Source of the DNA: Polaribacter filamentus
GTDB taxonomy: Bacteria > Bacteroidota > Bacteroidia > Flavobacteriales > Flavobacteriaceae
Length of the DNA stretch: 64,000 bases
Direction: 5' to 3'
Assembly: GCF_002943715.1 (NCBI RefSeq)
Contig: NZ_MQUA01000013.1
Location: 2,617,501-2,681,500, forward strand
Each line of letters opens with the position of its first letter. Position 1 is the first letter of the stretch. This document shows positions 11,268 through 26,208 of this stretch, piece by piece. Under the pieces are notes generated by a model. It ran no database searches. It was not told the DNA's origin and was given only the letters and a program-made list of their open reading frames with translations. The position numbers and the translations under genes were made by a program.

Positions 11268-11299
11268 AAAAGAGTTAATTTTAAAGTAAAATAGTAATT

Positions 11300-11338
11300 A
11301 AAAAATCCTCACAATCTAAATTTGTGAGGATTTTTTTT
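11300..11338. terminator. Bidirectional terminator between rseP and the small-protein relic
   Basis: Stem AAAAAATCCTCACAA / TTGTGAGGATTTTTT with a 7-nt loop, A run on the left and T8 on the right. It ends rseP on the plus strand and the small pseudogene on the minus strand. Confidence 0.85.
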
Positions 11339-11491
11339 AAATTCTTAAAGAAGGATTGATCAAAGGAAACCTTTTATACACTGTGTTGCATGTATCCCAA
11401 CATAAGTTTTAGCTCTTGGCATTAATTTAAGAAAAGTCTTTCTTTTTAATCTGTGTCGTGACACAAACTTACTTTTTGGGCACTTTTTCAT
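11337..11491 (-). pseudogene. Decayed tandem copy of a 51-aa two-CxxC protein
   Basis: Reading from ATG 11489-11491 gives MKKCPKSKFVSRHRLKRKTF, then LKLMPRAKTY; after a one-base shift near 11389-11395 the end reads CNTVYKRFPLINPSLRI and stops at TAA 11337-11339. It aligns end to end with the neighbouring copy (MKACPKCKSVSKQKLKRRPI at the start, CNTAYTWFPIINGSLRI at the end). The span is 155 nt, one less than the 156 nt of the other copy. Besides the frameshift, the second Cys of the first CxxC is Ser and the first Cys of the second pair appears to be Trp, so the metal site is lost. A terminator of the same design follows both copies, so the repeated unit was gene plus terminator. Confidence 0.7.
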
Positions 11492-11654
11492 AGTTAGTAA
11501 TTTTTCTTTGGGCTAAAAATAAAACAAGTACAAAACTATTTTTTTTCACCAAGTCAATATTCTTTTAACATTTTATGCTACATATTATACATTGTCGAAA
11601 ATTTTCTTGTGTTTAATTAGTAATTAAATACTTTTTCACAACCTAACAATAATG

Positions 11655-11683
11655 AAAAACCCTCATAATATAAAATTATGAGG
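11655..11683 (-). terminator. Terminator after the IS-interrupted small gene
   Basis: Stem CCTCATAAT / ATTATGAGG with loop ATAAA; on the minus strand it is followed by GTTTTTC. It resembles the hairpin after the first copy at 11300-11338. Confidence 0.65.
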
Positions 11684-11760
11684 ATTATTTTTTAAATTCT
11701 CAAAGAACCATTAATAATAGGAAACCATGTATACGCAGTATTGCAGTTATTACAAGAATA

Positions 11761-11767
11761 GCCTATA
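11761..11767. repeat. 7-bp target site duplication, left copy
   Basis: GCCTATA directly before the left IS end; the identical right copy is at 12750-12756. Confidence 0.9.
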
Positions 11768-12749
11768 ACCCGTTGTGCATTTAAACAATATTGACTTTTA
11801 AATTGTTTATATTCCTATTAAAAACAAATTTGTTAATGTATTGAATGATAGTTAGTGCTGTTAATTTTGAGAGAATTCTTGTCTTAAAACCTTCAAAAGT
11901 TTTCGCATAATTATTCCGTATTTTAAACTGGTCACAAAGTTGAGAAAACAAGGTCTCAATTCGTTTTCTTTTCTTCCTAAAAATATACGTTTGTTTTTTG
12001 TAATTCTGTTGATTTTTACGCATTGGAACTTCTAATTTAATTTGTTTACTCTCAAATAAATCTAACTGATAGTCCGCACTTAGGTATCCTTTGTCCCCTA
12101 AAACCACACAGTTATTAAACTGATTTTTAATGTCTTTTAAATAATGAATATCATGTACAGAAGCTTTGCTAATATCAAAACTTTTAAACACGCCATCAAT
12201 AGAACAAACAGCATGTATTTTATAGCCATAATAATGCATGTTTTGACTAGCACAATAACCTCTATTTGGGGCTGAATAAAAGTACTCTTTACAAACTTTA
12301 CTTCTCCCGCTTCTTGAGAGTTTTACAATCTCCAAAGGCATACTATCTACTACATAATAGTTTTCAAACTCCGTGAACTTATTGGAGAGTTGAGTTCTTA
12401 TAAATTCAATGGCAAAAAATAATTTTCGCTTCCGTTTATTGTAAACTGATCGCTCTATTTTAGCAAACAAATATTCTGGAATATCCCGAAACAACTGACA
12501 TTCACTGTCTATACCCATATATTCTGCTGTTAAATTCATAGCGATTAATTCAATGTCTTTTAGTTTTGGTTTCCTGTTTTGACGTAAAAATTGTTCCTTT
12601 TCTGTAATTGTGGCTAAGACTTCTAAAATTTTATCGTAATTTGCTCTAAAGTTATTCATCGTATTTAATCGATTGATTGTCAATTAAATATACGACTTTT
12701 AATAGTCAAATGAATAACTTTTTTTAACTATTTATAATGCACAACGGGT
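11768..12749 (-). mobile_element. IS982-family insertion sequence, complete (982 bp)
   Basis: Terminal inverted repeats ACCCGTTGTGCAT at 11768-11780 and its complement at 12737-12749 bound a single transposase gene. The element is exactly 982 bp. It is flanked by a perfect 7-bp target duplication, GCCTATA, at 11761-11767 and 12750-12756. The ends, the length and the DDE transposase all fit IS982. The perfect ends, intact transposase and undamaged duplication mean a recent insertion and probably a still mobile copy. Other copies are expected elsewhere in the genome but none is in this window. Confidence 0.93.
11781..12659 (-). CDS. IS982 family transposase
   Basis: 292 aa from ATG 12657-12659 (MNNFRANYDKILEVL); an in-frame TTG at 12683 would add 8 residues but the ATG start is usual for the family. 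A helical N-terminal DNA-binding part is followed by an RNase-H-like DDE domain: Asp105 in YYVVDSMPLE, Asp189 in VVLGDKGYLS, and Glu235 in KRIETLFSQL, with the Y-G-x-K-I-H segment near residues 145-149 and RNNYAKTFEGF near the end. No frameshift or internal stop is present, so the enzyme should be active. It would cut at the 13-bp terminal repeats. Confidence 0.92.
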   Translation of the reverse strand: MNNFRANYDKILEVLATITEKEQFLRQNRKPKLKDIELIAMNLTAEYMGIDSECQLFRDIPEYLFAKIERSVYNKRKRKLFFAIEFIRTQLSNKFTEFENYYVVDSMPLEIVKLSRSGRSKVCKEYFYSAPNRGYCASQNMHYYGYKIHAVCSIDGVFKSFDISKASVHDIHYLKDIKNQFNNCVVLGDKGYLSADYQLDLFESKQIKLEVPMRKNQQNYKKQTYIFRKKRKRIETLFSQLCDQFKIRNNYAKTFEGFKTRILSKLTALTIIQYINKFVFNRNINNLKVNIV

Positions 12750-12756
12750 GCCTATA
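12750..12756. repeat. 7-bp target site duplication, right copy
   Basis: GCCTATA directly after the right IS end, identical to 11761-11767. Confidence 0.9.
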
Positions 12757-12938
12757 GTACCTATATATAATTTTACAATCGGTCTTCTTTTCAGTTTTTG
12801 TTTTGAAACTGATTTACATTTGGGGCAAGCTTTCATTCCTGTTAATATTTTTAGAAAGGCGCAAAATTTAATAAAAATCTATTCATCGAGCCGAAATAAT
12901 AACCCCTATTTAAGTAAGAATCTCTTCACAAACCAACT

Positions 12939-12972
12939 AAAAAAAGCCACCCTCAAAATAGAGGATGACTTT
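12939..12972 (-). terminator. Terminator of the NfeD/flotillin operon
   Basis: On the minus strand the RNA forms a 12-bp stem (AAAGUCAUCCUC with GAGGGUGGCUUU, two G-U pairs) with a 6-nt loop, followed by a run of seven T. It lies 58 bp after the flotillin stop. Confidence 0.75.
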
Positions 12973-13030
12973 ACACTAATAGTTATGAAAGATTCGATTT
13001 AAGAATCAATTTTTAAACTTGTTTTTTATT

Positions 13031-14446
13031 TTATTCTTCTGATTTTTCTTTTTTACCATCAATTAAATCAACAGGAATATCTTTTCCTTTTAAATATTCT
13101 GGTAAATCCATACCTGCCATATTAAACATTTCTTGCAAAGGCGGTACGGATTTGTACATGCCAGAAATAAAGTTCGAAGTAGAAGATTTCCCATCCTTTC
13201 CTCCTCCATTTTCCCAAACTGTAATTTTATCAATTTTAATATTTTTGATAGCTTCTGCCTGTAATCTTACTAATTCAGGTAATTTATCCGCAATTAAAAG
13301 TAATACTGCATCCTTAGAATTATTACCAGCTGCTTTTACAATTTCATCTAAACCGGCTGCTTGTTTTGTTAAAACTTCATACAAACCTTGTGCTTCTGCT
13401 TGTGCTTTAAATAAGATTGCATCCGCTTCTCCTCTTGCAATTCTTCTAATATTTTCTGCTTTAGCTTCTGCATCAATTTCAACCTTTCTCTTATCAATTT
13501 CTGCAGGAACAATAATATCTGCTAACTGAGACGAGCGCTCTCTTTCTGCTCTTGCAGTTTCTGCTAGCTGTTCTGCGGCATAAGATTCTTCTAATGCTTT
13601 TGCTGTTTGTACTTTTTCTGATGCAATTGCTACACGTTCTGCTTCTGCTTCTCTCTGACGGCGTAAAGAATCTGAATTTGCTACATTAATTTTCGCAATA
13701 TTTTCTCCTTCTACGGCTTTCGCATTTGCCGCAGCAACCTGCGTTCTTTCATCTTGTAAAGCATTTGCTTCACCAATAGAACCATCTCTATTTTTTTCTG
13801 CAACCGATTTTCTTGCAGCGTTAATTGCATGTGCAGCCGCTTCTTTTCCTAAAGCTTGAATATATCCAGATTCATCAACAATATCAGTAATATTTACATT
13901 GATTAATTTTAAACCCACTTTCTTTAATTCAGTTTCCACACTTTGAGAAATATTCGTTAAAAACTTATCACGGTCATTGTTAATTTCTTCAATATCCATA
14001 GAAGCTACAACCAAACGTAACTGACCAAATATAATTTCTTGCGCTAATTCTTGAATTTGACTTTGACCTAAACCTAACAAACGCTCTGCAGCATTTTGCA
14101 TAATTCCTGGTTCTGTAGAAACCCCAATCGTAAATCTTGAAGGCACATTTACACGAATGTTTTGCTTAGAAAGTGCATTTACTAAATTAACTTCAATAGA
14201 AATTGGAGTTAAATCTAAAAACTGATAATCTTGAATTACAGGAAAAATAAAAGCGGCTCCACCATGAATACATTTAGCAGATCCACCTCCACTTACTTTT
14301 CCATACACTACTAAAATTCTATCCGAAGGACATCTTTTATAGCGTTTTACAAGTGTCATTAACACTATAAATATGAATAGAATTGCGATTCCTATTCCAA
14401 CTAATCCAGCATATGGGCTGCTTTGTAATACAATTAAATTTAGCAT
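13031..14446 (-). CDS. Flotillin family protein (SPFH/band 7 domain)
   Basis: 471 aa. An N-terminal membrane segment (about 12-33) is followed by an SPFH/band 7 domain (about 35-215: VVYGKVSGGGSAKCIHGGAAF, RFTIGVSTEPGIM, LRLVVASMDIEEINNDRD) and a long Ala/Glu-rich coiled coil (about 220-380, repeats such as AEAERVAIASEK and EIDKRKVEIDAEAKAENIRR) as in flotillins. The C terminus is short and variable. Flotillins form large rings in ordered membrane patches and affect membrane fluidity, signalling and division. The NfeD-like gene 8 bp upstream is the usual partner (known family pairing), so both are one operon. Length is normal for flotillin. Confidence 0.9.
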   Translation of the reverse strand: MLNLIVLQSSPYAGLVGIGIAILFIFIVLMTLVKRYKRCPSDRILVVYGKVSGGGSAKCIHGGAAFIFPVIQDYQFLDLTPISIEVNLVNALSKQNIRVNVPSRFTIGVSTEPGIMQNAAERLLGLGQSQIQELAQEIIFGQLRLVVASMDIEEINNDRDKFLTNISQSVETELKKVGLKLINVNITDIVDESGYIQALGKEAAAHAINAARKSVAEKNRDGSIGEANALQDERTQVAAANAKAVEGENIAKINVANSDSLRRQREAEAERVAIASEKVQTAKALEESYAAEQLAETARAERERSSQLADIIVPAEIDKRKVEIDAEAKAENIRRIARGEADAILFKAQAEAQGLYEVLTKQAAGLDEIVKAAGNNSKDAVLLLIADKLPELVRLQAEAIKNIKIDKITVWENGGGKDGKSSTSNFISGMYKSVPPLQEMFNMAGMDLPEYLKGKDIPVDLIDGKKEKSEE

Positions 14447-14454
14447 CGTAATTT

Positions 14455-15027
14455 TTATTTTTGAGGTTCTATAATTAATATTCCGTTATTGGTAAGTTCT
14501 ACCACTTTTATAACATTTCCTTGTTTTAAGTCTTTATCATAATCTGTTAAAGCTTCTAATTCTCTTAAAGTTCCTTGCACTTTTATTTGCACTTTACCTA
14601 TTTTAGACCTGTTTGCACCAACAGTTAAATAGACCTCACCGATAGTATTTAAGGCATTTTGCATTTTTAAAGTTCCGCTAGAACTTAATTTACTGATGTA
14701 ATAAAACATTGCTGCCATTACTGTCATCATTGCTAAACCACAAAATATAGAAATTGTTATAACTACCAAATTAGAATATCCTGCATCAGAACTTGCAATT
14801 CCACTCCAACCAAAAATAGTGAAGAATGCAACCAAATTTTTGATTGTAAAAAACTGAAAACCTGCTCCTGTATCCGCATCTATTTCTGCATCAATATCAC
14901 CAATATCGTCAGAATCTGTTCCCATAACTGTAGAAATTAACACAATTAAAAACAGCAAAGTTGATACTAATGTAATAATCCAATATGTTTTTAAAAACGA
15001 GGGTAACTCAGTAAACCATTCCATCAT
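14455..15027 (-). CDS. NfeD-like membrane protein (flotillin partner)
   Basis: 190 aa. Membrane helices at about 14-36, 60-80 and 87-112, an acidic loop between the first two (GTDSDDIGDIDAEIDAD), and a C-terminal OB-like domain (about 125-190: ALNTIGEVYLTVGANRSKIGKVQIKVQG, GNVIKVVELTNNGILIIEP), the layout of NfeD/YqiJ-type proteins. These are encoded next to flotillin or stomatin genes and probably scaffold the SPFH ring. It is the first gene of the operon, 8 bp before flotillin. A nested palindrome lies 35-68 bp upstream of its start and may be the operator. Confidence 0.85.
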   Translation of the reverse strand: MMEWFTELPSFLKTYWIITLVSTLLFLIVLISTVMGTDSDDIGDIDAEIDADTGAGFQFFTIKNLVAFFTIFGWSGIASSDAGYSNLVVITISIFCGLAMMTVMAAMFYYISKLSSSGTLKMQNALNTIGEVYLTVGANRSKIGKVQIKVQGTLRELEALTDYDKDLKQGNVIKVVELTNNGILIIEPQK

Positions 15028-15061
15028 AGCATGTAATTTTAAAGTGTTTAAATATAAAGGT

Positions 15062-15095
15062 TTTTGACTTTATAAAACGTTTTATATTGTCAAAA
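15062..15095. promoter_or_regulatory. Nested palindrome upstream of the NfeD/flotillin operon
   Basis: A perfect 16-bp palindrome TATAAAACGTTTTATA (15071-15086) is enclosed, after a TT/TT mismatch on each side, by the inverted pair TTTTGAC (15062-15068) and GTCAAAA (15089-15095). The 34-bp structure shares one centre of symmetry. It may be a site for a dimeric (or tetrameric) repressor, or an RNA hairpin in the leader. Confidence 0.5.
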
Positions 15096-15769
15096 TAAAA
15101 ACTCTAAGATTATTTTGAAAAGCTCTAAAATATAATCTTTGTTTCTATTGTATTAGTAGTATAAAAATTAATTTTGTTACAGAAAAAGAAAAATATTATA
15201 ATTACCTTCTCTAGGTAAATTTTTCATCAAATTTAAAAAAAACATTCTGTCATCGTTATATATGTTAAATCTTTTATCCTGAGGAAATAATTCTGGAAAT
15301 TGCAATTGCTTCATCAGAGTATGCAATGAAGTTATGAAAATGTAATTTTTTAGAGAAAAATACATTGGCTGATGTATCAAACTATATACAGAAATAGAAC
15401 CAACTCCTTGTTATTACTTTCTTTAAATATAAGGGTTTTATAGCCTATTTTTTAGTAGTTTCTGATGAAAAATGATACGATTATTTTTGTGAAAACACAG
15501 TGCTTTTGTTTCTAAATTTCGCGGATTTAGATCTGAAAATCGATGAAAAATTATTGAAATAATTCCTCTTTTTTGAAGCTTTACTTCATATTTTTCTTAA
15601 CTATCAATGACTCTTTTTATTTAATTGTTTTTAAAGCTAAAACTATCTCTAACGGATTATTTTGAGCACAACTTAAACGTAAAAGAAGTAGTAAAAAAAT
15701 AGAATTTCTGATCATACTATTTATTTTTCAGACCAAATAAACCTATTTATATTATTCCTTTAAAAAACC
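15096..15769. other. Gene-poor stretch
   Basis: About 670 bp without a recognised gene. A minus-strand open frame at 15177-15380 (67 codons, ending GNYNIFLFL) has no ribosome-site or family match that I can support; from its inner Met it reads MKQLQFPELFPQDKRFNIYN and could be a gene remnant. The rest is AT-rich with stops in all frames. Confidence 0.4.
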
Positions 15770-15803
15770 AAAAAAAGCCTTGATAAAAATTTATCAAGAC
15801 TTT
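15770..15803 (-). terminator. Terminator of the TonB-dependent receptor gene
   Basis: Stem AAAGCCTTGATAAA / TTTATCAAGACTTT (one G-T/A-C type mismatch on DNA, pairing as G-U in RNA); on the minus strand a run of seven T follows. It starts 26 bp after the receptor stop. Confidence 0.8.
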
Positions 15804-15828
15804 AATGAAAGTATGTTGGGGATTTTTA

Positions 15829-17655
15829 TTAAAAGCTGTATCGTAATCCAAATAAAATATTACTTGGTGGCATTGGCACAAAACCAGATTCTATATAATC
15901 TGCATCAAAAATATTGTTAGCTGTTAGTGTAAAGTTAAATTTATGTACATCAACAATTACAGAAGCATCCCAAACATTATAACTTGTACCAACAGTTCTT
16001 TCTGCATGTTTATAAATAATATTTTGCCTTACATTTTTAAACAATTTGCTTGTAAAACGAGTTATAAATTGATGTTTTAAAGTATTTAAAGAATAACGAG
16101 ACAAATCTTTATTCTGATCTAAAATATCATCTTCTAAAAAATTATATCCAAAAGATAACGTTTGATTAAATTCATTTATTTTAAAACGATAATCTGCATT
16201 TAGCTCAAAACCTTTCGTGTTCACTTCTGCAAAATTGGTAGCTACAAATTTAGTTGCTGTAGCATCTGGCCTCACAAAATCTATTAAATTAGTTGCTTTT
16301 CTGTTAAAAATTGCCACAGAAGTTGTAAACCTATCAGAATTATATTTTAACCCTATTTCTTGTGCAAACGCTTCTTCTGGGTTTAAATTAGGATTTCCAC
16401 TGGTGCTGCTATCATTATAATACAAATCTGTATACGTTGGGACTCTGTAAGTTATCCCTAAATTTCCGTATGCTTTTAAATTATCAGACAGTTGATATCC
16501 AATATCCAACCCTGGAAATGCATGAAATTTAAAATCAGAAAAATAGGTAACCGCAACTCCAGGAGTAATATCTAATTTATCATCAGCTAATTTAAAACGG
16601 TGTTCTAAAAACAAATTTGCCATCGTTCTGTTTCTATTTCCTAAATTATTACTACTTATAAAAACTCTAGAAATATCTATACCAAAACCTGTAATACCGA
16701 AGTTAGATTTATAAGATGCATTTGTTTCTGCACCTACTTTATTTGTAATATGTAAGTTTCTATAAAAACTTGGATCATCCCTTTTCAACAAAAATATATC
16801 TTGACCTCTTTTCCAATAAACTCTTGGAATAATTTTAAACTTTTCTGTATTAAAAGTCGTAGAAACGCCAAATAAACTACTCTGCGTTTCTTCATATTCA
16901 TTAAAACCCCAAGAAGGAGGTGTGTAAAAATTTTGTGCGCCGAATTTTTTATCAAAAAAAGTAGCAATCATTTCTATAGGTTGCTTTTTCTTATTAAAAA
17001 TTCCTTTTAAAAAATAATTATAATTATTGTAATCAGAATTTTCTCTATATCCGTCTGATGTTAATGCACCAATATGTGCAATAACAGATGTGTTTTCAGT
17101 TTCTTTGCCAACTGTTAGAGAATAATTCAACTGACTAAAAGAACCAGCTTCAACATTAATAGAAACATTATTATCCAACTTATTTTTAGTAACAATATTT
17201 ATTGCTCCTGTAAATGCATTTTGCCCGAAAACTCTTGCTGCTGGACCTTTAATAATTTCTATTCTTTCAATAACTTCTAACGGTAAAGCTGCATTTAAAG
17301 TGTGATGCCCAGTTTGGGAATCATCCATTTTTATGCCATCAATCAATAGTAAAGTTTGGTCAAAACCACCACCTCTAATGTATAAATCTGCCTGACTACC
17401 TGCAGTTCCTCTTCTTCTAATGTCTACACCGGCAACTTGTTGTAACAAATCTGCCACATTTGTTGCTGCACTGTTTTTTATTATTTTAGATGTGATGACA
17501 ACTATAGTTCGTGAGTTTTCTTTAAAAGGTAAATCGATTCTTGAAGAAGTAATCATCACTTCTTTTAAAGTGTCTCTTTTTATAGTTTCAACTTGTGCTT
17601 TTGCTTGTAAAGCATAAAATAATAGAACAATAAATAACGTAATTTTAATTTTCAT
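15829..17655 (-). CDS. TonB-dependent outer membrane receptor (BtuB-like)
   Basis: 608 aa from ATG 17653-17655, chosen because it starts a clean signal peptide (MKIKITLFIVLLFYALQAKAQ); an upstream ATG adds 8 residues. The plug domain follows (about 30-150: VVITSKIIKNSAATNVADLL, VDIRRRGTAGSQADLYIRGG, DGIKMDDSQTGHH, IERIEIIKGPAARVFG, AFTGAINIVTK), then a 22-strand-type barrel ending in FGLRYSF, with the final aromatic residue recognised by the outer-membrane assembly machinery. The size and lack of a SusC-type N-terminal extension place it with cobalamin/siderophore-type receptors. No SusD gene is adjacent. It is divergent from a MocR-type regulator with shared operator-like repeats, so that regulator probably controls it. 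Substrate unknown; a B6 vitamer or amine-type ligand is speculative. Confidence 0.88.
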   Translation of the reverse strand: MKIKITLFIVLLFYALQAKAQVETIKRDTLKEVMITSSRIDLPFKENSRTIVVITSKIIKNSAATNVADLLQQVAGVDIRRRGTAGSQADLYIRGGGFDQTLLLIDGIKMDDSQTGHHTLNAALPLEVIERIEIIKGPAARVFGQNAFTGAINIVTKNKLDNNVSINVEAGSFSQLNYSLTVGKETENTSVIAHIGALTSDGYRENSDYNNYNYFLKGIFNKKKQPIEMIATFFDKKFGAQNFYTPPSWGFNEYEETQSSLFGVSTTFNTEKFKIIPRVYWKRGQDIFLLKRDDPSFYRNLHITNKVGAETNASYKSNFGITGFGIDISRVFISSNNLGNRNRTMANLFLEHRFKLADDKLDITPGVAVTYFSDFKFHAFPGLDIGYQLSDNLKAYGNLGITYRVPTYTDLYYNDSSTSGNPNLNPEEAFAQEIGLKYNSDRFTTSVAIFNRKATNLIDFVRPDATATKFVATNFAEVNTKGFELNADYRFKINEFNQTLSFGYNFLEDDILDQNKDLSRYSLNTLKHQFITRFTSKLFKNVRQNIIYKHAERTVGTSYNVWDASVIVDVHKFNFTLTANNIFDADYIESGFVPMPPSNILFGLRYSF

Positions 17656-17676
17656 AGATATTGATTTAAAACGATG

Positions 17677-17739
17677 CAAAAGTGCTAACTTTCCGGACGA
17701 CTAAACTAGTCCAGTTTCAAAATGATAGATAGTCCGGTT
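17677..17739. promoter_or_regulatory. Divergent promoter/operator region, TonB receptor and MocR gene
   Basis: For the receptor, the minus-strand CACTTTTG (17677-17684) is one base off TAnnTTTG. Between and beside the two starts are AGTCCAGTT (17708-17716) and AGTCCGGTT (17731-17739), direct repeats 23 bp apart, plus an inverted GTCCGGAA at 17692-17699. AAACTAGTCCAGTTT (17703-17717) is itself nearly palindromic. Direct repeats around two helical turns apart fit the known binding mode of MocR/PdxR dimers. The second repeat lies just inside the MocR coding region. Confidence 0.5.
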
Positions 17740-19224
17740 AATACCCTCTTTAAACAACTAATTGATTTTGATAAATCAATGTCTCAACCTGTATTTATAC
17801 AGGTATCACAACAAATTATAAACGCTATACAACGTAGGTATTTAACCAAAGGTACTTTATTACCAGGAACTCGAGTATTAGGCAAAATATTAAAAGTTCA
17901 CAGAAATACAGCGGTTGCTATTTATGAAGAATTGGCTTCGCAAGGTTGGGTAGAAATCATACCAAATAAAGGCACGTTTGTTTTAGAACCAGAGCTAAAA
18001 ACAGCAAAAATAAAAGCAACTTCGCAAAAAATAAATCAAGCATACACCTATGCAAAAACAACAGGGTTTCCTTTTCAAAAATCATTTCATTTAGCATCAA
18101 CAACTCAATTAACAACCGCTAATTACACTATTAATGAAGGCAAACCTGATTTACGCTTACACCCAGTTCATGAGTTTACAAGGTGGTACAGCGCTGCCAT
18201 GAAAAGAAAAACGGTACTAAAAAAATGGAACCGACCAAGCGAGTCGTCCTATTCTTTATTTCAAACTCAGCTATGTAATTATTTAAATGCAACGAGAGGT
18301 TTTCACATAAAACCAAATAACCTCATAAGTACGAGAAGTACAGAAATGAGTTTGTACATCGTATCTCAATTATTGATAAAACAAAACGATGTCGTATTGG
18401 TAGGTAATTTAAGTAATTATGCATCTAATATGATTTTTCAACAAGCGGGCGCAACGATTAAGACAGTTCCTGTAGATGCTGATGGTTTAAATATTGATTA
18501 CATAAAAAACCATTTTGTTAAAAGCAGCATCAGATGCGTCTACATTTGCGCCCATAGACAATACCCAACAGTAGTGAAGTTAAGCACGGCACGTCGTTTA
18601 GCCTTGTTACAACTAGCTAAAGACTACGAATTTGCTATTATTGAAGATGATTATGATTATGATTTTCAGTTTGAAGGTTCTGCAATGTTACCCATGGCAA
18701 CCGCTGATGCAAACGGAATGGTTATTTATTTAGGAAAATTTGGACAATCGTTATTTCCGAGTTTTCAAACCGGTTTTGTAATAGCACCTGAGAATATAAT
18801 CTCGGAAGCAACAAACTATTTGCAATTACTAGACAAACAGGGCGATTTAATACAAGAACAAATGTTATCTGAATTAATTAATGAAGGAGAAATTCATCGC
18901 CTGATGAAAAAAAATATTATAATCTATAAAGGGCGACGCGATCGTTTATGCGAACTTCTGACCGAATATCTTTCAGAAATAGCAACATGGAATATCCCCG
19001 CCGGTGGATTGGCTATTTGGTTAAAATTTCAAGCGAATATATCCTTAGTAAAACTCGCCGAAGAAGCCGAAAAAAATAATTTATTTCTGCCAAAAACGAT
19101 TCTTTATCAAGATAAAAACACCTGTGCGATTCGTTTTGGTTTTGGGCATTTAAATAAAGAAGAAATGGAACCTGTAATTCAAAAATTAAAAAGTGCTTAT
19201 AATAAGGTCAATGAAATAGCTTAA
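17722..19224 (+). CDS. MocR-type GntR/aminotransferase regulator with altered PLP site
   Basis: 500 aa. An N-terminal GntR winged helix (about 18-90: QPVFIQVSQQIINAIQRRYL, LPGTRVLGKILKVHRNTAVAIYEELASQGWV, KGTFV) is joined by a linker to a fold-type I aminotransferase domain (about 135-495; EDDYDYDFQFEG keeps the aspartate that pairs with the PLP ring nitrogen). The segment that should carry the PLP Schiff-base lysine (family form GTFSKTLFP) reads GKFGQSLFP, so the lysine position is Gln342. The following Arg-containing GLRLGY is SFQTGF, and the glycine and proline-rich phosphate loops are also altered. It may therefore bind PLP weakly or another ligand. It is divergent from the TonB receptor and probably regulates it and itself. 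Confidence 0.88.
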   Translation: MIDSPVNTLFKQLIDFDKSMSQPVFIQVSQQIINAIQRRYLTKGTLLPGTRVLGKILKVHRNTAVAIYEELASQGWVEIIPNKGTFVLEPELKTAKIKATSQKINQAYTYAKTTGFPFQKSFHLASTTQLTTANYTINEGKPDLRLHPVHEFTRWYSAAMKRKTVLKKWNRPSESSYSLFQTQLCNYLNATRGFHIKPNNLISTRSTEMSLYIVSQLLIKQNDVVLVGNLSNYASNMIFQQAGATIKTVPVDADGLNIDYIKNHFVKSSIRCVYICAHRQYPTVVKLSTARRLALLQLAKDYEFAIIEDDYDYDFQFEGSAMLPMATADANGMVIYLGKFGQSLFPSFQTGFVIAPENIISEATNYLQLLDKQGDLIQEQMLSELINEGEIHRLMKKNIIIYKGRRDRLCELLTEYLSEIATWNIPAGGLAIWLKFQANISLVKLAEEAEKNNLFLPKTILYQDKNTCAIRFGFGHLNKEEMEPVIQKLKSAYNKVNEIA

Positions 19225-19249
19225 AGATTCGTTTTGTGTCTTTAAAACA

Positions 19250-19741
19250 CTAATAGTATAATCTGTTTTTAATTATTCCTTTTATAGCTTTCTTTTCATG
19301 ATTCAGTAAAGCATTGTATTCTTCTTCTTCAAAATTACTTTTAACGCCGATAAATTTGATTTTATAGTTTTTTAAAACTTCACTAAAAATTAGTTTTACA
19401 CGTTCTAAATGATAATCCGAAGTAATTATTTTTAAATGTATATTTTCTAATGTTGAAATAATATCTCTAGTTTTTACAGCGTCCTCAACCGTGTTTGTTG
19501 ATAAAGCAAATTCCAAAAAACAATCTTCAGAAATTCCTCTTTCCATTAAATATTTTTTGGTGTAAAAAGCATGTGGTTTACTAGCTGTATTAAAAAGCGC
19601 TCCACAACCACCAGTGCAAAGAATTAGTGTGTTTTTTTCATAAATTTCTAAGCAAAAATCTAACCTCTACTTTGCCATCATGCCTAATTCTCCTGTTGGT
19701 GAATTTGGAGATCCTAAAACAACTAAAATTTCTTTATCCAT
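19250..19741 (-). pseudogene. YdcF/DUF218 family gene with an in-frame amber stop
   Basis: From ATG 19739-19741 the frame reads MDKEILVVLGSPNSPTGELG, then MMAK and TAG at 19667-19669, and continues in the same frame RLDFCLEIYEKNTLILCTGG down to TAA at 19250. The downstream part contains the DUF218 motifs CTGGCGALF, ERGISEDCFLEFALSTNTVEDA and KIITSDYHLERVKLIF. The position is R-L-D with a preceding polar residue in relatives, so a single base change made the stop. Intact length would be 163 aa. YdcF-like proteins are thought to act on envelope or nucleotide substrates; function is unknown. The last 98 codons have an ATG (19546) and could still be translated but would lack the GSP N-terminal loop. 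Confidence 0.85.
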
Positions 19742-20071
19742 ATAAAAATTCTGATTTTTTACAAAAATACGCAACAAGGGGAATGATTTGCTAAGAATTC
19801 AAGAAAAAATAGCAGCATAAAAACCGTCAAAACTCTATCTTTCAAAACTACTTTTGTAATCGTAACCTACATTCTTCTAATACACATTATGGATCGGTTT
19901 TTAATCTAAAAACACACTAATAAAACCAATGAAGTGCTAAGTAGAGATAAGCGTCCAATTGAAAACCTTTCAAAAAAGAGTAACAGAATAATTTGGCTTC
20001 CATATTTATGTAGTTTTAATTATGAAATAAAATACTGATAATTTTAAAGAAAAGTTATAATTTGCAATCAA
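19742..20071. other. Intergenic stretch before the UmuD-like gene
   Basis: 330 bp, AT-rich, with no open frame that I can support. A weak -7-like TATAATTTG lies at about 20056-20064, only 7 bp before the UmuD-like start. I saw no clear SOS (LexA) box. Confidence 0.4.
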
Positions 20072-20506
20072 ATGAAAATATCAGAAACACTAACTTTTTA
20101 TACACCAAAAACTTCAACTGGAAATGGAGCAATCTTAGTTGACGTAGGTATTTCTGCTGGTTTTCCTTCAGCCGCAGAAGATATTTGTGAAACTAGAATT
20201 TCTTTAGATGACGAATTAATCAGAAATAAAGACACTACTTTTTTCGCAAAAGTTAAGGGACAATCTATGATTGACGCTGGTTTAGATGATAGTGATTTAT
20301 TAGTAATTGACCGAAGCTTGGAACCTGCAAACAACAAAATTGCGGTTTGTTTTTTAGATGGTGAGTTTACTGTAAAACGTTTGCGCGTTGAAAAAAATGA
20401 AGTTTGGTTGCAACCAGAAAACCCTAATTATCCTATAATAAATATCACAGCAGATAATGATTTTGTGATTTGGGGGATTGTAACAAACGTTATCAAAAAA
20501 GTTTAA
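20072..20506 (+). CDS. UmuD-like S24 peptidase (LexA/UmuD superfamily), orphan
   Basis: 144 aa, the length of UmuD. The self-cleavage site Ala29-Gly30 lies in GISAGFPSAAED, and the catalytic Ser65 (VKGQSM) and Lys102 (EFTVKRL) are 37 residues apart, the same spacing as Ser60/Lys97 of E. coli UmuD. The fold would be the S24 beta-domain with no N-terminal DNA-binding domain. In SOS-competent bacteria UmuD' is the processivity partner of the translesion polymerase UmuC. Here no umuC follows: the next gene starts 78 bp on and encodes a membrane protein under its own promoter. The partner may be encoded elsewhere. Confidence 0.85.
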   Translation: MKISETLTFYTPKTSTGNGAILVDVGISAGFPSAAEDICETRISLDDELIRNKDTTFFAKVKGQSMIDAGLDDSDLLVIDRSLEPANNKIAVCFLDGEFTVKRLRVEKNEVWLQPENPNYPIINITADNDFVIWGIVTNVIKKV

Positions 20507-20531
20507 AATTACCTTTTTTAATATTTTATTA

Positions 20532-20559
20532 TTGTTTATCAATAATTTTTATATATTTG
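20532..20559 (+). promoter_or_regulatory. Promoter of the DoxX-like/DUF2975/HTH operon
   Basis: TTG at 20532-20534, 17-bp spacer, then TATATTTG at 20552-20559: both parts of the Bacteroidota promoter consensus at proper spacing. The GTG start is 26 bp downstream. Confidence 0.65.
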
Positions 20560-20584
20560 TTGCATCAAAACAAAATTATAAAAA

Positions 20585-21820
20585 GTGAATTCTAATCAAA
20601 TACAATCAAAAAACTGGAGTTTAATATCTAAAATAATCTTTCGATTTTCTTTTAGCTATTTCACAGTATTCATTCTTCTATTATTCTTAGCTCTTTTTAT
20701 AGAAACCCCATTACGCTGGTTTGCTGACACAATCCTTAATTGGGGAGCAGATTTTAAAATGGAAAGTACAGGTAGTGGCGATAGATCATTTGATTATGTC
20801 CGCTTTTTCTTGAATCTTATTTTAGCTTTTTTCACCTGTATTGTCTGGTCAATTTTAGATAAAAAAAGAACTTCTTACACAACGTTATTCTATTGGTTTC
20901 AAAGTGTTTTAAGACTATTTTTATGCATTGCAATGATTCTTTATGGTTTGGCAAAAGTATTTAAAGGCCAATTTGCTGATCCAAGTTTAGAGTTCTTATT
21001 ACAACCTGTTGGCGAATTGTCTCCTATGGGATTGGCCTGGGTATTTATGGGGCATTCTATGGTATATAATATCTTTCTTGGTTCTTTAGAGATATTGGGC
21101 GGACTCCTGTTACTATATCGTAAAACAAGTACTTTAGGAAGTCTTCTTATTTTAGGAATTATGATGAACGTGACAATTATGAATCTTACCTATGACATTC
21201 CTGTAAAGTTATTTTCTATTCACCTGGTATTAATGGCTTTCATTTTACTAGTTGCAAATGGTAAACGAGTACTCAACTTCTTTCTTAAAAATGAAGCGAC
21301 AGAGAAGCTACTCTATATAAATTACATCAAAAACAAATCGTTTTTAAAAGTAATTCGTTTTTTCAAAAAAGCAACAATCATTATAGTTACCATACTTGTA
21401 ATACTACAATGCTTTATCAATTTCAAAGCCACAGAACAACTTAGATCTAACTCTGAAATTCGTGGTATCTGGAAAGTAGAAACCTTTACAAAACAAAACG
21501 ATACGTTGGCGCCACTTTTAACCGATTCTTTTCGATGGAGGTATTTGATCATCGATTATAAAAAGAAAGCTGTTGTCAAGAAAATGAACGACACTATAGA
21601 AAGATATTCTTTTGAAGAAAATACCGAAACAAAAGAACTTATTCTTAAAAGCTCAACAGATTCAATATCTCAAAAATTTACCTATTCTATTTCGAATTCA
21701 AATCAATTAAAACTAAAAGGAGACCATTTAAATATTTCTTTTAAAAAAGTACCTACATCTCAATTTAGGCTTCTCAACAGAAAGTTTCACTGGATAAATG
21801 AAACTACTTATATGTATTAA
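20585..21820 (+). CDS. DoxX-like multi-helix membrane protein, unknown function
   Basis: 411 aa from a GTG (VNSNQIQSKNW, translated as Met) preceded by an A-rich ribosome site and the promoter. Membrane segments at about 22-45, 75-95, 105-125, 155-178, 182-200, 208-225 and 262-282; the central part (LRLFLCIAMILYGLAKVFKGQFADP, LGSLEILGGLLLLYRKTSTLGS) resembles the DoxX four-helix family. The last 120 residues form a soluble beta-rich tail (IRGIWKVETFTK, FRWRYLIIDYKKKAVVKKM) that looks like a lipocalin-type stress domain. It is first in a four-gene run with two DUF2975 proteins and an HTH regulator. Function not known. Confidence 0.7.
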   Translation: MNSNQIQSKNWSLISKIIFRFSFSYFTVFILLLFLALFIETPLRWFADTILNWGADFKMESTGSGDRSFDYVRFFLNLILAFFTCIVWSILDKKRTSYTTLFYWFQSVLRLFLCIAMILYGLAKVFKGQFADPSLEFLLQPVGELSPMGLAWVFMGHSMVYNIFLGSLEILGGLLLLYRKTSTLGSLLILGIMMNVTIMNLTYDIPVKLFSIHLVLMAFILLVANGKRVLNFFLKNEATEKLLYINYIKNKSFLKVIRFFKKATIIIVTILVILQCFINFKATEQLRSNSEIRGIWKVETFTKQNDTLAPLLTDSFRWRYLIIDYKKKAVVKKMNDTIERYSFEENTETKELILKSSTDSISQKFTYSISNSNQLKLKGDHLNISFKKVPTSQFRLLNRKFHWINETTYMY

Positions 21821-21830
21821 AAACTATAAA

Positions 21831-22346
21831 ATGAAAACAGAGAAATTATTAAAAGTCATGAAGTTCTTTTCATGGTTTGCTTTTATCGGATTAATGATTA
21901 AATCAGGAGGAATTCTAGTCACCTATTTATTAAGCATAGAAAATGCAGCGATTTCAAAAAGTTTATATGACGGCATCAACCTCTTTGAATACAGAAATTA
22001 TAGCTTTACACAGTATTCTTTTATTATATCTTATAAAATTTTACTATTTGCGACTGAAGCTTATATTGCGTTTTTAGTGATTAAATTACTGCGAAAATTA
22101 AATATTAAACAACCCTTTAATATGGATGTTCAAAAATTAATGCAACAAATAAGCAAAGGTATTTTCTATTTGTGGATTTTGGCAATTGTGCACAACACGC
22201 ACATGCAATTGATTGGAAAAAAATATGATTTTCAAATGGATTTGTTCTCTAGTGATTTCGTTTTCCTTTCTCTAATCATCTTTATTTTTGCGCAAATTGT
22301 AAAAAGAGGCATTGAAATTCAATCTGAAAATGACTTAACCATATAA
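21831..22346 (+). CDS. DUF2975 family membrane protein
   Basis: 171 aa from ATG 21831 (MKTEKLLKVMKFFSWFAFIG); the frame extends upstream into the previous gene but this ATG is 8 bp after that stop and fits the family. Four membrane helices at about 10-32, 65-88, 110-130 and 140-160, with the polar ends typical of DUF2975. The last residues ENDLTI are shared with the next protein. DUF2975 proteins usually come with a small HTH protein of the YozG type, as here. Function unknown. Confidence 0.75.
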   Translation: MKTEKLLKVMKFFSWFAFIGLMIKSGGILVTYLLSIENAAISKSLYDGINLFEYRNYSFTQYSFIISYKILLFATEAYIAFLVIKLLRKLNIKQPFNMDVQKLMQQISKGIFYLWILAIVHNTHMQLIGKKYDFQMDLFSSDFVFLSLIIFIFAQIVKRGIEIQSENDLTI

Positions 22347-22348
22347 TT

Positions 22349-22852
22349 ATGAGAAAAATTAATATTTTAAAAGGCATTGTAGATGTACTTTGGATATTCT
22401 CTATGCCAATAGTATTAGTAATTATTGGTTTTTCTATTGCAATTTTCTTTGTTGATTTAGGTGAATTAAATATCAAAATAAATTCAGTAAATTTTAATAG
22501 CGATGCCTTATTATCAAAAACATTACTTGTTATTTCAGCACTAAATTATTTACTAATTATTACAGCTTTATATTTTTTTAGAAAAGTATTAAACCACTTT
22601 ATAAGAGTAAAAATATTTGAAGAAACGGTTATAACATCCTTCAAAAAAATAGGAAATTTATTAGCTGTTTCCGGGATTATTTCTCTCACAATCGCAATGA
22701 TTAGTAAAATTTATTTTGAACAAAAAATATCTTTAGAATTCGGATTAAACCAGCATATAGTAATTATTTGCTTAGGCTTGTTCTTTATCATTTTAAGTGA
22801 AATATTTAAAATAGCCAAGAATCAAAAACAAGAAAACGACTTAACTATATAA
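22349..22852 (+). CDS. DUF2975 family membrane protein, second copy
   Basis: 167 aa, 2 bp after the previous gene. Four predicted helices at about 12-35, 58-78, 100-122 and 130-152. It shares fold layout and the C-terminal QENDLTI tail with the upstream DUF2975 protein, so the two are probably paralogues from a duplication. It ends one base before the HTH gene starts, so all are co-transcribed and translationally coupled. Function unknown; a membrane complex sensed or controlled by the HTH protein is inference. Confidence 0.72.
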   Translation: MRKINILKGIVDVLWIFSMPIVLVIIGFSIAIFFVDLGELNIKINSVNFNSDALLSKTLLVISALNYLLIITALYFFRKVLNHFIRVKIFEETVITSFKKIGNLLAVSGIISLTIAMISKIYFEQKISLEFGLNQHIVIICLGLFFIILSEIFKIAKNQKQENDLTI

Positions 22853-22853
22853 T

Positions 22854-23060
22854 ATGGCAATCATAGTAAATTTAGATATAATGCTTGCAACTCGTAAAAT
22901 GCGGAGTAAAGAATTGGCAGAAATAATCGGAATTACTACCGCAAATTTATCCGTTTTAAAATCAGGAAAAGCAAAGGCAATTCGGTTTTCAACTTTAGAA
23001 GCTATTTGTGATGCTTTAGATTGCCAACCTGCAGATATTTTAGAATATCAGCAAGATTAA
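22854..23060 (+). CDS. Small XRE/YozG-type HTH regulator
   Basis: 68 aa, nearly all one helix-turn-helix domain: MLATRKMRSKELAEIIGITTANLSVLKSGKAKAIRFSTL has the two HTH helices and ends CQPADILEY, as in the YozG-type Cro/CI proteins that accompany DUF2975 genes. It starts 1 bp after the DUF2975 stop and is the last gene of the operon before a terminator. It probably regulates the operon, either directly or through interaction with the membrane proteins; no operator was identified. Confidence 0.88.
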   Translation: MAIIVNLDIMLATRKMRSKELAEIIGITTANLSVLKSGKAKAIRFSTLEAICDALDCQPADILEYQQD

Positions 23061-23067
23061 AAAGCAT

Positions 23068-23101
23068 AAAAAAACTCCGAATTTTCATTCGGAGTTTTTT
23101 T
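23068..23101 (+). terminator. Terminator after the HTH gene
   Basis: A7, stem ACTCCGAAT / ATTCGGAGT with a 4-nt loop, then T7. Bidirectional, and also placed to end the convergent S9 peptidase gene. Confidence 0.85.
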
Positions 23102-23155
23102 CTTTTATTTTAATCAGTTCCTGACTACACTAGAACTGACATAGAATTTAATAAT

Positions 23156-25654
23156 TTATTTATTCTTTGGATCATCCATATTCATATATAATATATCAAT
23201 ATCTGTAGCCTCTTTTCCTAATAAATATTTACTAAAATGATCTGCTCTTAGCCAAAAAGAATATTCTGTCATGTCTCCAAAACCATGTCTTTGGCCTGGC
23301 ATAATCATAAATTCAAAACGCTTATGTGCTTTAATTAATTGTTCGGCCATTCTAATCGTTCCCGCAGGATGCACGTTATTATCCATATCGCCATGAATTA
23401 ACATTAAATGTCCTTTTAAGTTTTTTGCCAAAGATTGATTGTAATCAATATCATATTTATAAGAAATTTTTCCTTTTTCGTCAATTTCTTCTTTTACACC
23501 GTGATGCGTTTCACTCCACCAAGAATTATACACTCTATTATCATGGTTTCCTGCGGATGAAACTGCGGCTTTAAAGAAATCTGGATAGACTAACATTGCT
23601 GCTGTAGACATAAATCCACCACCAGAATGACCGTAAATCCCTACTTTATCAATGTCTATAAATTGATGTTTATTCGCTAATTGTTGTGCTACATATTTTT
23701 TATCAGCCAAACCATAATCACGTAAATTTCCGTAACCATAATTGTGATACCATTTAGATCTGTCTGGATGACCACCTCTATTTCCCAAGGTAATTACCAC
23801 AAAACCAACTTGCGCCATTCTATCTAAACGATCCATTCTATAAGAAAAAGATTTGTTTACAGCTTCGGTTTGTGGTCCAGGATACACATATTCTAAAAGC
23901 GGATATACTTTTGTAGAATCCATATCAAAAGGCTTGTACATCACACCGTAAATATCTGTAATTCCGTCATCCGCTTTTACTTTAAAAGGTTCTGGAAATT
24001 GATATCCTGATGCTAATAATTGCGATAAATCTGCAGTTTCTAGATCTAGAACTAACTTTCCGTTCGTATCTCTCACTTCCGATTTTGGAGTGGTATTTAC
24101 TCTAGAAAAATTATTTACAAAATATTGATTCGAATCAGACATCGAAGAAGTTGTTGTAAAATCTCCAGGATCTAAGGTCTTCATTCCCGATCCGTTTAAA
24201 CTGATTTTATACGTATGGGCATAATAAGGGTCGTGCTCTTTGTTGACACCGTTTGCTGTAAAATATAAGGTTCTACTTTTTTCATCTAAACCCTCAAATC
24301 CTGCCACATGATAATCACCTTCTGTAACTTGATTTTTTAAGTTTCCGTTGGCATCATATAAATAAAAATGTGCCCAACCATCGCGCTCTGCCCAATGCAA
24401 CATTTCTGTTTCATTGTTAAATAAAATTAAGGGTGCAGACTCTATGTAGGTATTAAAACGCTCTTCAATCAACACTTTGTATTCACCCGTATTTATATCA
24501 GCTACACAAACATCATATTTTTTTCTATCTCTAGAAATTACACTAAAATAAAGTTTTCCTTTTTTTGACAAAAGCAAAGAAGGGGTAAAATCATCATCTC
24601 GATCAGATTGTTTTCTTGGTGCTCTAAAAACATTTAAACTTTGTTGACGAACCGTATCTAAAGGAACTTTTACATGCGTTTTTGTTGGAATATCAAAAAT
24701 TAATAATTCTGATTTGTAATATTCTTGCTCTCCCGGCATATGGTATTTATAGGTTTCTAAAGTTGGTCTTTTTTTACCTGTAGAATTAATTACCCACAAA
24801 TCTTTGATGTGTCTAGAATCTGATTTTTCGAACACAAACTTTTTAGAATCATGAGACCAAGTTCCCCACGCACCTTTACGTTTGTCTTTATTTTCATCTT
24901 TATCAACATTATCTTCTCTTGAACTACCGCCGTAACCGTAGTTATCTTCTCCATCTTTTGTCCATTGATTTTCTACAACAGTGCTATCTTTTTCGTTTTT
25001 AATAAACTTTTTAAAGTTTATTTTATCCATCCAATACAAGTTAAATTGTTTTGAGTATAAAACGATAGAACTATCTGGAGCAATATTTGCCCACTTTTCC
25101 CAAGGTTTTTTCTCTTCTTTTTTAGTGTTGATTATTTTCAAACCATTACTACCTAGTCTATATTCTAAATAGTAGGTTTTTTTCTCCATTTTTGGTGTCT
25201 TCGTTTTTTCACTTTTAGTGGATATGGAATCATTTTCTATATCTTCTTTTTCATCAACGAACTCCACTTCTTCGGTTGATTCTACTCTAAAATGAATCGC
25301 ATTTTCAGCTTCATTAAATTTAAAATCCAATTTCGGTAAATGTTTAGCATCATAAGGATCTTTGGTAATTTCTGTTAACCATTTCGCCATCTTCACATTG
25401 TCAAAAAGCTCATTTTTGCTTTTTTTATCAAGATCAACCAGATAATGATTAGACCCATCCGATGTTTTGTAGGCATACCAAAAACGGTTTCCCTTTTTTA
25501 ACCAATGCGGATTTACATCCGTTGAATGCACCATTTTTGCCAAGTTCTCTGGCGCATATTTGGCGGCCTGCCTATAATTTGGCGTTGGAGTTTCTTGCGC
25601 AGAAATTACTGATACAGTAAATAAAAACACAAAAAATAAGATACTATTTTTCAT
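23156..25654 (-). CDS. S9 family prolyl oligopeptidase (DPP IV-type)
   Basis: 832 aa. Signal peptide (MKNSILFFVFLFTVSVISAQ), an N-terminal beta-propeller of the DPP IV type (about 30-580) and a C-terminal alpha/beta hydrolase. The nucleophile Ser677 is in GIYGHSGGGFM; the acid is in HGDMDNNVHP and the base in GQRHGFGD. It would cleave dipeptides (often X-Pro) or oligopeptides in the periplasm or at the cell surface, as in peptide-degrading flavobacteria. No neighbours indicate a special role. Residues 120-180 include a charged low-complexity insert (EFVDEKEDIENDSISTKS) that widens the propeller relative to short homologues. Confidence 0.92.
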   Translation of the reverse strand: MKNSILFFVFLFTVSVISAQETPTPNYRQAAKYAPENLAKMVHSTDVNPHWLKKGNRFWYAYKTSDGSNHYLVDLDKKSKNELFDNVKMAKWLTEITKDPYDAKHLPKLDFKFNEAENAIHFRVESTEEVEFVDEKEDIENDSISTKSEKTKTPKMEKKTYYLEYRLGSNGLKIINTKKEEKKPWEKWANIAPDSSIVLYSKQFNLYWMDKINFKKFIKNEKDSTVVENQWTKDGEDNYGYGGSSREDNVDKDENKDKRKGAWGTWSHDSKKFVFEKSDSRHIKDLWVINSTGKKRPTLETYKYHMPGEQEYYKSELLIFDIPTKTHVKVPLDTVRQQSLNVFRAPRKQSDRDDDFTPSLLLSKKGKLYFSVISRDRKKYDVCVADINTGEYKVLIEERFNTYIESAPLILFNNETEMLHWAERDGWAHFYLYDANGNLKNQVTEGDYHVAGFEGLDEKSRTLYFTANGVNKEHDPYYAHTYKISLNGSGMKTLDPGDFTTTSSMSDSNQYFVNNFSRVNTTPKSEVRDTNGKLVLDLETADLSQLLASGYQFPEPFKVKADDGITDIYGVMYKPFDMDSTKVYPLLEYVYPGPQTEAVNKSFSYRMDRLDRMAQVGFVVITLGNRGGHPDRSKWYHNYGYGNLRDYGLADKKYVAQQLANKHQFIDIDKVGIYGHSGGGFMSTAAMLVYPDFFKAAVSSAGNHDNRVYNSWWSETHHGVKEEIDEKGKISYKYDIDYNQSLAKNLKGHLMLIHGDMDNNVHPAGTIRMAEQLIKAHKRFEFMIMPGQRHGFGDMTEYSFWLRADHFSKYLLGKEATDIDILYMNMDDPKNK

Positions 25655-25758
25655 CTGTAGTGTTTGTTTAATTTGAATTAAAATCTAAAGTTCTCGAAAA
25701 CAAATTATATTACAAATTATAAAGTAATTTATATTAAAAGTTTATCGCTTTTTAACAA

Positions 25759-26208
25759 TTAATTAAGATTCCGTTTTTCAACAAAGAATCTTTTTAACAA
25801 TTGCGAACATTCTTTTTCTAAAACACCACTTATAACTTTTGTCTTTGGATGTAACGTAGTTTTTAAGTTCACAAAACCTCTTTCTAGTTCAGAAGCTCCA
25901 TAAACAATTGTATCAATTTGTGCCCAATAACTTGCGCCAGCGCACATTTGGCAAGGTTCTAAAGTAACATACAATACACAATCTTTTAAATATTTTCCTC
26001 CTAAAAAATCAGCTGCTGCTGTAAAAGCTTGCATTTCTGCATGTGCCGTTACATCCGTTAAGGTTTCTGTTAAATTATGCGCTCTCGCTATAATTTGATT
26101 TTTATGAACAATAATTGCACCCACAGGTACTTCGCCTTTATCATAAGCTGCTTCTGCTTCTTGCAAAGCTTTTTTCATGAAATAAATATCGTCAAAAGGT
26201 TGTATCAT
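25759..26208 (-). CDS. tadA: tRNA-specific adenosine deaminase TadA
   Basis: 149 aa, normal size. The zinc deaminase signature is complete: His56-Ala-Glu58 in TAHAEMQAF and Cys86-Gln-Met-Cys89 in PCQMC. TadA converts A34 to inosine in tRNA-Arg(ACG), so it is essential. The start MIQPFDDIYFMKKAL is typical for Bacteroidota homologues. A guanine deaminase of the same fold is possible, but the length and motif favour TadA. Confidence 0.9.
   Translation of the reverse strand: MIQPFDDIYFMKKALQEAEAAYDKGEVPVGAIIVHKNQIIARAHNLTETLTDVTAHAEMQAFTAAADFLGGKYLKDCVLYVTLEPCQMCAGASYWAQIDTIVYGASELERGFVNLKTTLHPKTKVISGVLEKECSQLLKRFFVEKRNLN

Follow-up and report, generated by a model that had tools for sequence, protein, structure and literature searches.

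A BioL-related MocR-type regulator without the PLP lysine, divergent from a candidate biotin/dethiobiotin receptor in Polaribacter filamentus

The window analysed here is a stretch of 64,000 nucleotides from the Polaribacter filamentus genome (RefSeq assembly GCF_002943715.1, contig NZ_MQUA01000013.1, positions 2,617,501 to 2,681,500, forward strand). It contains a MocR-type regulator gene arranged divergently from a gene encoding a TonB-dependent receptor, with putative operator boxes lying between the two and reaching into the regulator gene. The features of the locus, in window positions, are as follows:

15829..17679, minus strand: TonB-dependent receptor, predicted biotin/dethiobiotin receptor, divergent partner of the regulator; the listed start is TTG at 17679, and ATG at 17655 is thought likelier
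17693..17712: putative operator boxes 1 and 2, an inverted repeat CCGGAC-N10-GTCC between the regulator and receptor genes
17722..19224, plus strand: MocR-type regulator, kin of BioL, 500 aa with an ATG start, without the PLP lysine
17730..17737, plus strand: putative operator box 3, TAGTCCGG, within regulator codons 3-6
Regulator residues ~27-87: GntR-type winged HTH (PF00392, E 9.1e-8)
Regulator residues ~110-500: aminotransferase-like domain
18736..18738, plus strand: codon of Lys339, basic in 81/81 orthologues (71 K, 10 R)
18745..18747, plus strand: codon of Gln342, at the Schiff-base lysine position (GabR Lys312, which forms the PLP aldimine)
18766..18768, plus strand: codon of Gln349, at the PLP-phosphate arginine position (GabR Arg319)

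Beyond the regulator lies a short DUF218 ORF of 98 aa (19250-19740, minus strand) that resembles one piece of a longer, disrupted gene, and then a UmuD-like gene (20072-20506, plus strand; NF007621, 158 bits, above cut-off) followed by an unrelated membrane-protein ORF. Genes named by eye as umuD-like and umuC-like are each found close to the locus in 28 of the 80 relatives; as umuC-like genes recur in the relatives and a membrane-protein ORF is found here, umuC may be missing in the window.

The regulator has the architecture of the MocR subfamily of GntR proteins, with an N-terminal GntR winged HTH and a C-terminal fold-type-I aminotransferase-like domain. A structure model was among the checks proposed by the initial annotation, and the model built from 82 MocR rows is confident, with a pLDDT of 90.2; an earlier AlphaFold model using 28 close relatives reached a pLDDT of 65 and was set aside. 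The top Foldseek match of the model is GabR 4n0b (E 2.9e-34) and the best PdxR chain is 7zla_B (E 5.2e-30), the GabR and PdxR matches sharing 21-23% identity with the regulator, and VIA-align comparison with 4mgr_D gives a Z of 38.6 and an rmsd of 8.6 over 435 residues. Assignment to PdxR itself was rejected, the NF052282 equivalog scoring 263.1 bits against a curated cut-off of 320.

The initial annotation, made from the sequence alone, had placed Gln342 at the Schiff-base lysine position and described the nearby arginine as altered, and both readings hold. The GKFGQSLFPSFQTGF segment of the regulator pairs with GAFSKSLIPSVRISY of B. clausii PdxR (7pq9) in a phmmer alignment, which sets Gln342 on the Schiff-base lysine and Gln349 on the conserved arginine. 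Alignment of GabR (4n0b) to an 82-row MocR profile that takes in the regulator, with residue numbers counted by hand, agrees: the lysine and arginine columns correspond to Lys312 and Arg319, and EDDYD to Asp279-Asp280-Tyr281. Spacing is likewise preserved, with 33 residues from Asp309 to Gln342, as from 279 to 312 in GabR, and seven from Gln342 to Gln349, as from 312 to 319. In GabR, Lys312 forms the internal aldimine, Arg319 contacts the PLP phosphate, Asp279 the pyridine nitrogen, and Tyr281 stacks on the cofactor, and Arg207 and Arg430 are the arginines for the effector carboxylate (PMC6917764, Table 2). The latter two align with Ser235 and Leu461 of the regulator, hence the GabR carboxylate site is not retained, and Arg471 was rejected as the counterpart of GabR Arg430. 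Arg471 aligns instead with the C-terminal arginine of aminotransferases (TMRLNF), a residue with a role in carboxylate binding.

The distribution of these residues was followed in an orthologue set (n = 81) composed of the window protein and the best 80 of 545 relatives from a scan of a genome collection (64-89% identical), those 80 belonging to flavobacteria or unclassified Bacteroidota, with the nearest named loci in Polaribacter (up to 89% identity). Position 342 is glutamine in 80 orthologues and histidine in one, with lysine in 0/81, and position 349 is glutamine in 64 and histidine in 17, with arginine in none. A pseudogene or sequencing slip was discounted, the frame being open and Gln342 recurring in 80/81 orthologues. 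Aligned with PdxR, GabR and homologues, the regulator has no lysine at the Schiff-base position and no substitute for it: the nearest conserved basic residue to 342 is residue 339, which stands three residues away and is arginine in 10/81. Residue 339 aligns with GabR Thr309 and is serine in the BioL-type group described below. The EDDYD motif, reported as kept, is invariant at Asp309 and Asp310 (81/81, as is Arg471), but position 311 is tyrosine in 61 orthologues and phenylalanine in 20. The glycine-rich loop (GNLSNYASN) does differ as had been reported, but it is not diagnostic and was dropped as a sign of PLP loss, because Lys-keeping BioL-type relatives have GELSYFSVN there.

Since the 81-orthologue set was picked by similarity, a second sample of 249 Flavobacteriaceae genomes from 235 genera was examined. 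In it, 32 genomes carry a regulator match of 65-100% identity, the next best match being 45%, and all 32 have glutamine at 342; the 81-orthologue and 32-genome sets overlap, and their counts are not summed. A further 30 loci of the family sample, also overlapping with the orthologue set, all have glutamine at this position. As a control, 296 Bacteroidota genomes yielded 70 full-length MocR loci, of which 63 keep the lysine and 62 the arginine. Loss of the lysine and arginine is a trait of the regulator clade, and with both residues gone throughout it, the loss of covalent PLP chemistry raised by the initial annotation is strongly supported at the sequence level; lysine mutants described for EnuR (PMC8739950) and BioL (PMC12915131) point the same way.

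A second MocR of the window genome, the PdxR-like L003 (G000:C14:484754-485893), also has no lysine. The motif of L003 reads GTFNRLLHPSIRLGY, with arginine replacing the lysine and the phosphate arginine kept; L132 and L142 are further cases, and on the tree this is a separate loss.

PLP or PMP might nevertheless be held noncovalently, with Lys/Arg339 holding the phosphate in place of Arg349, Asp309 holding the pyridine nitrogen, and the amine of an effector reacting with PLP. Consistent with this are the conservation of Asp309 (81/81), of an aromatic residue at 311 (81/81) and of a basic residue at 339 (81/81), and a confident model whose top Foldseek matches are GabR and PdxR. Residue 339 corresponds to GabR Thr309, three residues ahead of the lysine, a position that faces the phosphate in aminotransferases. 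However, both main anchors are gone and the pocket tyrosine is phenylalanine in 20/81 orthologues, and such retention of the cofactor appears unlikely. The EnuR Lys302His variant, moreover, has no bound PLP (PMC8739950).

The closest described relative is BioL, a MocR repressor of bioEFD and bioBA in Elizabethkingia/Chryseobacterium that senses the amine-bearing intermediate 8-amino-7-oxononanoate (AON) and whose PLP lysine is K340 (PMC12915131). Eight loci, seven MocR loci and L235, were grouped as BioL-type (group a) on account of a gene order like that of BioL with bioE-bioF-bioD, an assignment that rests on gene order rather than on identity to the E. meningoseptica BioL sequence. All eight keep the lysine and arginine. 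L146, L154, and L156 are divergent from genes for a small protein (no Pfam match at L146 and L156), a BioF-like protein (292, 303, and 272 bits, best model TIGR00858, under its cut-off of 426), and BioD (above cut-off); each of the seven MocR loci includes a portion of bioB at its edge, and L235 contains bioB. Two further sets differ from these at both positions or one. The six loci of group (b) (L158, L159, L160, L162, L164, and L165) have serine or glycine for Arg349 and, in four of them, arginine for the lysine, and the receptor is divergent in 4/6, with none within 3 kb of L158 and L160. A third set (L236, L237, and L246) combines Gln349 with K, R, or H at position 342, the receptor-linked L236 keeping its lysine; the receptor is present in the two loci that can be told, L246 being near a contig edge and hence outside the receptor-linkage count. 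In group (b), bioB is retained by four of the six genomes, of which two have lysine and two arginine at 342, so that lysine loss does not simply track auxotrophy.

The regulator clade, the BioL-type loci and other groups form a superclade with 100/100 support. A 48-row tree places outgroup MocRs first, followed by the BioL-type loci that keep Lys and adjoin bio genes, and last the receptor-linked clade; this single clade takes in every receptor-linked row with 96/96 support and is nested within the BioL-type rows, and the minimum number of changes is three for the lysine and two for receptor linkage. In a 73-row tree, built without the third set and with 24 of 97 rows left out (L157, L161, L163, L166, L167, L169-L175, and L179-L190, all with Lys and Arg), groups (a) and (b) pair to the exclusion of the Gln clade, with unstarred support of 90/89, a topology that would require two recruitments. 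The regulator thus shares a clade with MocR loci beside bio genes in both trees, nested among them in the 48-row tree and beside (a)+(b) in the 73-row tree, and in both trees Arg349 is gone in each receptor-linked member read and the lysine has changed more than once. It departs from BioL in having Gln342 in place of K340 and in lying apart from bioEFD and bioBA, as no bioA, bioB, or bioD was found in its genome, which has a single exact operator.

That exact inverted repeat occurs only once in the window genome, and the pattern CCGGA[CT]-N10-GTCC is found in the intergenic region of 71/80 loci under strict matching and 78/80 under relaxed matching. A Ser-Pro pair within the first ten codons is encoded as AGT-CCG in 79/79 loci that have it, a count from related loci, and in the same genes AGT makes up 0.288 of serine codons and CCG 0.083 of proline codons. 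Loci of groups (a) and (b) carry similar boxes, the third one within or close to the first codons, in a comparison of the BioL-type loci where the start is misplaced for L156 and L236 and L236 is uninformative. A search of the window genome for a wider regulon, allowing up to two mismatches, gave 291 matches against 286 for the reversed pattern. A tighter operator pattern with one mismatch is present in 30 of the 32 clade genomes, G414 and G488 being the exceptions; most of its matches fall at the regulator locus, and matches away from that locus are near control level across the 32 genomes.

Boxes between and across both gene starts, together with the constitutive repression by EnuR Lys302His (PMC8739950), might also point to a ligand-blind repressor in which loss of the lysine has frozen DNA binding, expression then depending on the amount of the protein or on some other factor. 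This seems quite unlikely: a dead sensor should drift, yet the regulator shows a mean column identity of 78% along its length (28 rows), and BioL K340A is de-repressed rather than frozen (PMC12915131).

The receptor has plug and barrel domains and is head-to-head with the regulator in 81/81 loci, one of which (L012) consists partly of Ns, with the match ends 43-166 bp apart; it is also divergent in 32/32 clade genomes of the 249-genome sample. Its best NCBIfam match is the B12 receptor model TIGR01779, and identification as BtuB was rejected, as the score of 153.7 bits is far below the curated cut-off of 599.7. No Rfam match was found in window positions 11000-26000, so that stretch has no cobalamin riboswitch at the gathering score. 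The receptor occurs without the clade regulator in 56 of 88 receptor genomes (for example G029), meaning that the regulator is not obligatory, and bioD is absent in 53 of these 56.

The window genome is 99.96% complete (contamination 5.96), and no match to bioB (E 1e-40), bioD (E 1e-15), or bioA (E 1e-80) was found in it. Across the 249 Flavobacteriaceae, with receptor presence defined as a match at E 1e-100 or better, bioD is found in 5/88 receptor genomes versus 134/161 without the receptor (Fisher p 1.6e-35) and bioB in 11/88 versus 133/161 (p 3e-28), p-values that overstate independence because the genomes are related; the profile covers biotin genes alone among vitamin genes. For the regulator clade, the counts are 2/32 versus 137/217 other genomes for bioD and 8/32 versus 136/217 for bioB. 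Of the eight clade genomes with bioB, seven (L238-L244) have it after the receptor on the same strand, and the remaining one, G414, has it on a different contig. Neither bioD nor bioA was found in six of those seven (G354, G386, G408, G424, G442, and G450), which could therefore finish biotin only from dethiobiotin. Overall, bioB is downstream of the receptor on the same strand in 10/73 loci (19-204 bp between matches), the 73 being the 80 loci minus seven with less than 1 kb beyond the receptor match. BioY, sought as an inner-membrane partner, was found in 0/32 clade genomes, with a control positive in 9/14 genomes. Flavobacteria of the clade are likely biotin-auxotrophic.

A Cupin_8 gene, assigned to PF13621 from the one copy examined, follows bioB in 6/10 receptor-bioB loci and also stands directly after the receptor, without bioB, in 28 loci, which hints at loss of bioB there. 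Cupin_8 is also a neighbour in a genome outside the clade (locus L230, genome G393).

That receptor and regulator serve another substrate, such as B12, heme, or a siderophore, with the biotin links coincidental, might be read from the receptor's best match to a B12 model (TIGR01779, 153.7 bits), but this is very unlikely given a score so far under the cut-off of 599.7, the absence of a cobalamin riboswitch at gathering score in positions 11000-26000, and three lines that converge on biotin, namely the operon position of bioB (10/73), the anticorrelation with bioD, and the kinship with BioL.

The residue loss, receptor linkage, kinship, operator, and biotin-gene profile, all seen in the sequence, are best explained, with a probability of about 0.62, by an offshoot of BioL that gave up PLP, controls an outer-membrane biotin/dethiobiotin receptor, and probably binds the vitamin directly. 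We infer the ligand, the sign of regulation, the receptor substrate, and transport. The regulator would descend from BioL, a PLP-dependent MocR repressor of biotin synthesis, and would have been recruited, most likely once, to a TonB-dependent receptor for biotin and/or dethiobiotin, and the main clade would have lost the PLP-holding lysine and arginine. A regulator dimer is predicted to bind the boxes between the genes and into its own first codons, repressing the receptor and probably itself too. Biotin, dethiobiotin, or a derivative would bind noncovalently in the old PLP/effector cavity and set DNA binding, its carboxylate perhaps on the invariant Arg471 or on basic residue 339, so that the receptor would be made when the vitamin is scarce; repression by biotin is extrapolated from BioL. 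Sensing would have switched from an amine-bearing precursor through PLP, as with BioL and AON, to the finished amine-free vitamin: the primary amine of AON can meet PLP, whereas biotin and dethiobiotin carry no primary amine, and with a move from synthesis to uptake the aldimine would no longer be needed. Set against this explanation is the invariance of Asp309, the partner of the PLP pyridine. The stronger proposal, of a natural MocR lineage without PLP in which the emptied cofactor cavity was re-used as a direct biotin/dethiobiotin sensor controlling a dedicated receptor, is put tentatively, at slightly under even odds.

If the proposal is true, Bacteroidota would have an outer-membrane receptor dedicated to biotin, and the locus names a candidate biotin/dethiobiotin receptor in flavobacteria that look biotin-auxotrophic. 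A clade without the lysine also suggests that an aminotransferase-like sensor can outlive its cofactor, with BioL serving as the PLP-using relative for comparison. In the literature, MocR regulators count as PLP-binding proteins, and one survey has the lysine conserved in all three of its clusters (PMC6677901); another account treats MocR beside YczE (PMC4944035), and the main text of a MocR-regulon paper contains neither 'biotin' nor 'TonB' (PMC5320631). Biotin transporters are described as yet to be identified in the bacteria of PMC10008586, and the account of Caldithrix reports that no biotin transporter was found (PMC5317091). Titles and abstract openings of open-licence papers, among the matches listed, name no biotin TonB receptor and no natural lysine-less MocR.

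Among known systems, BioL is the nearest in its MocR architecture, common superclade (100/100), GTCCGG boxes near or in the first codons, and biotin context, but the eight BioL-type loci retain both Lys and Arg and are neighbours of bio genes, whereas the regulator has glutamine at both positions and a TonB receptor as its neighbour. In BioL itself, K340A phenocopies the bioL deletion for growth (PMC12915131, section 7), with ~4-fold de-repression versus ~40-fold for bioE in the deletion. GabR of B. subtilis and PdxR of B. clausii share the fold and domain order with the regulator, yet identity is 21-23%, the equivalents of Lys312 and Arg319 are gone, and the PdxR cut-off is missed. EnuR Lys302His resembles the regulator as a MocR without the PLP lysine; it takes up no PLP, still dimerises, and acts as a constitutive repressor (PMC8739950), but it is engineered, whereas the regulator clade is natural and conserved. 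The receptor resembles BtuB-type TonB receptors in its plug and barrel, although it falls under the B12 cut-off. Finally, clade genomes with bioB and without bioA and bioD are like the bioB-only marine bacteria that grow on dethiobiotin, whose entry route was left open in that account (PMC9561691).
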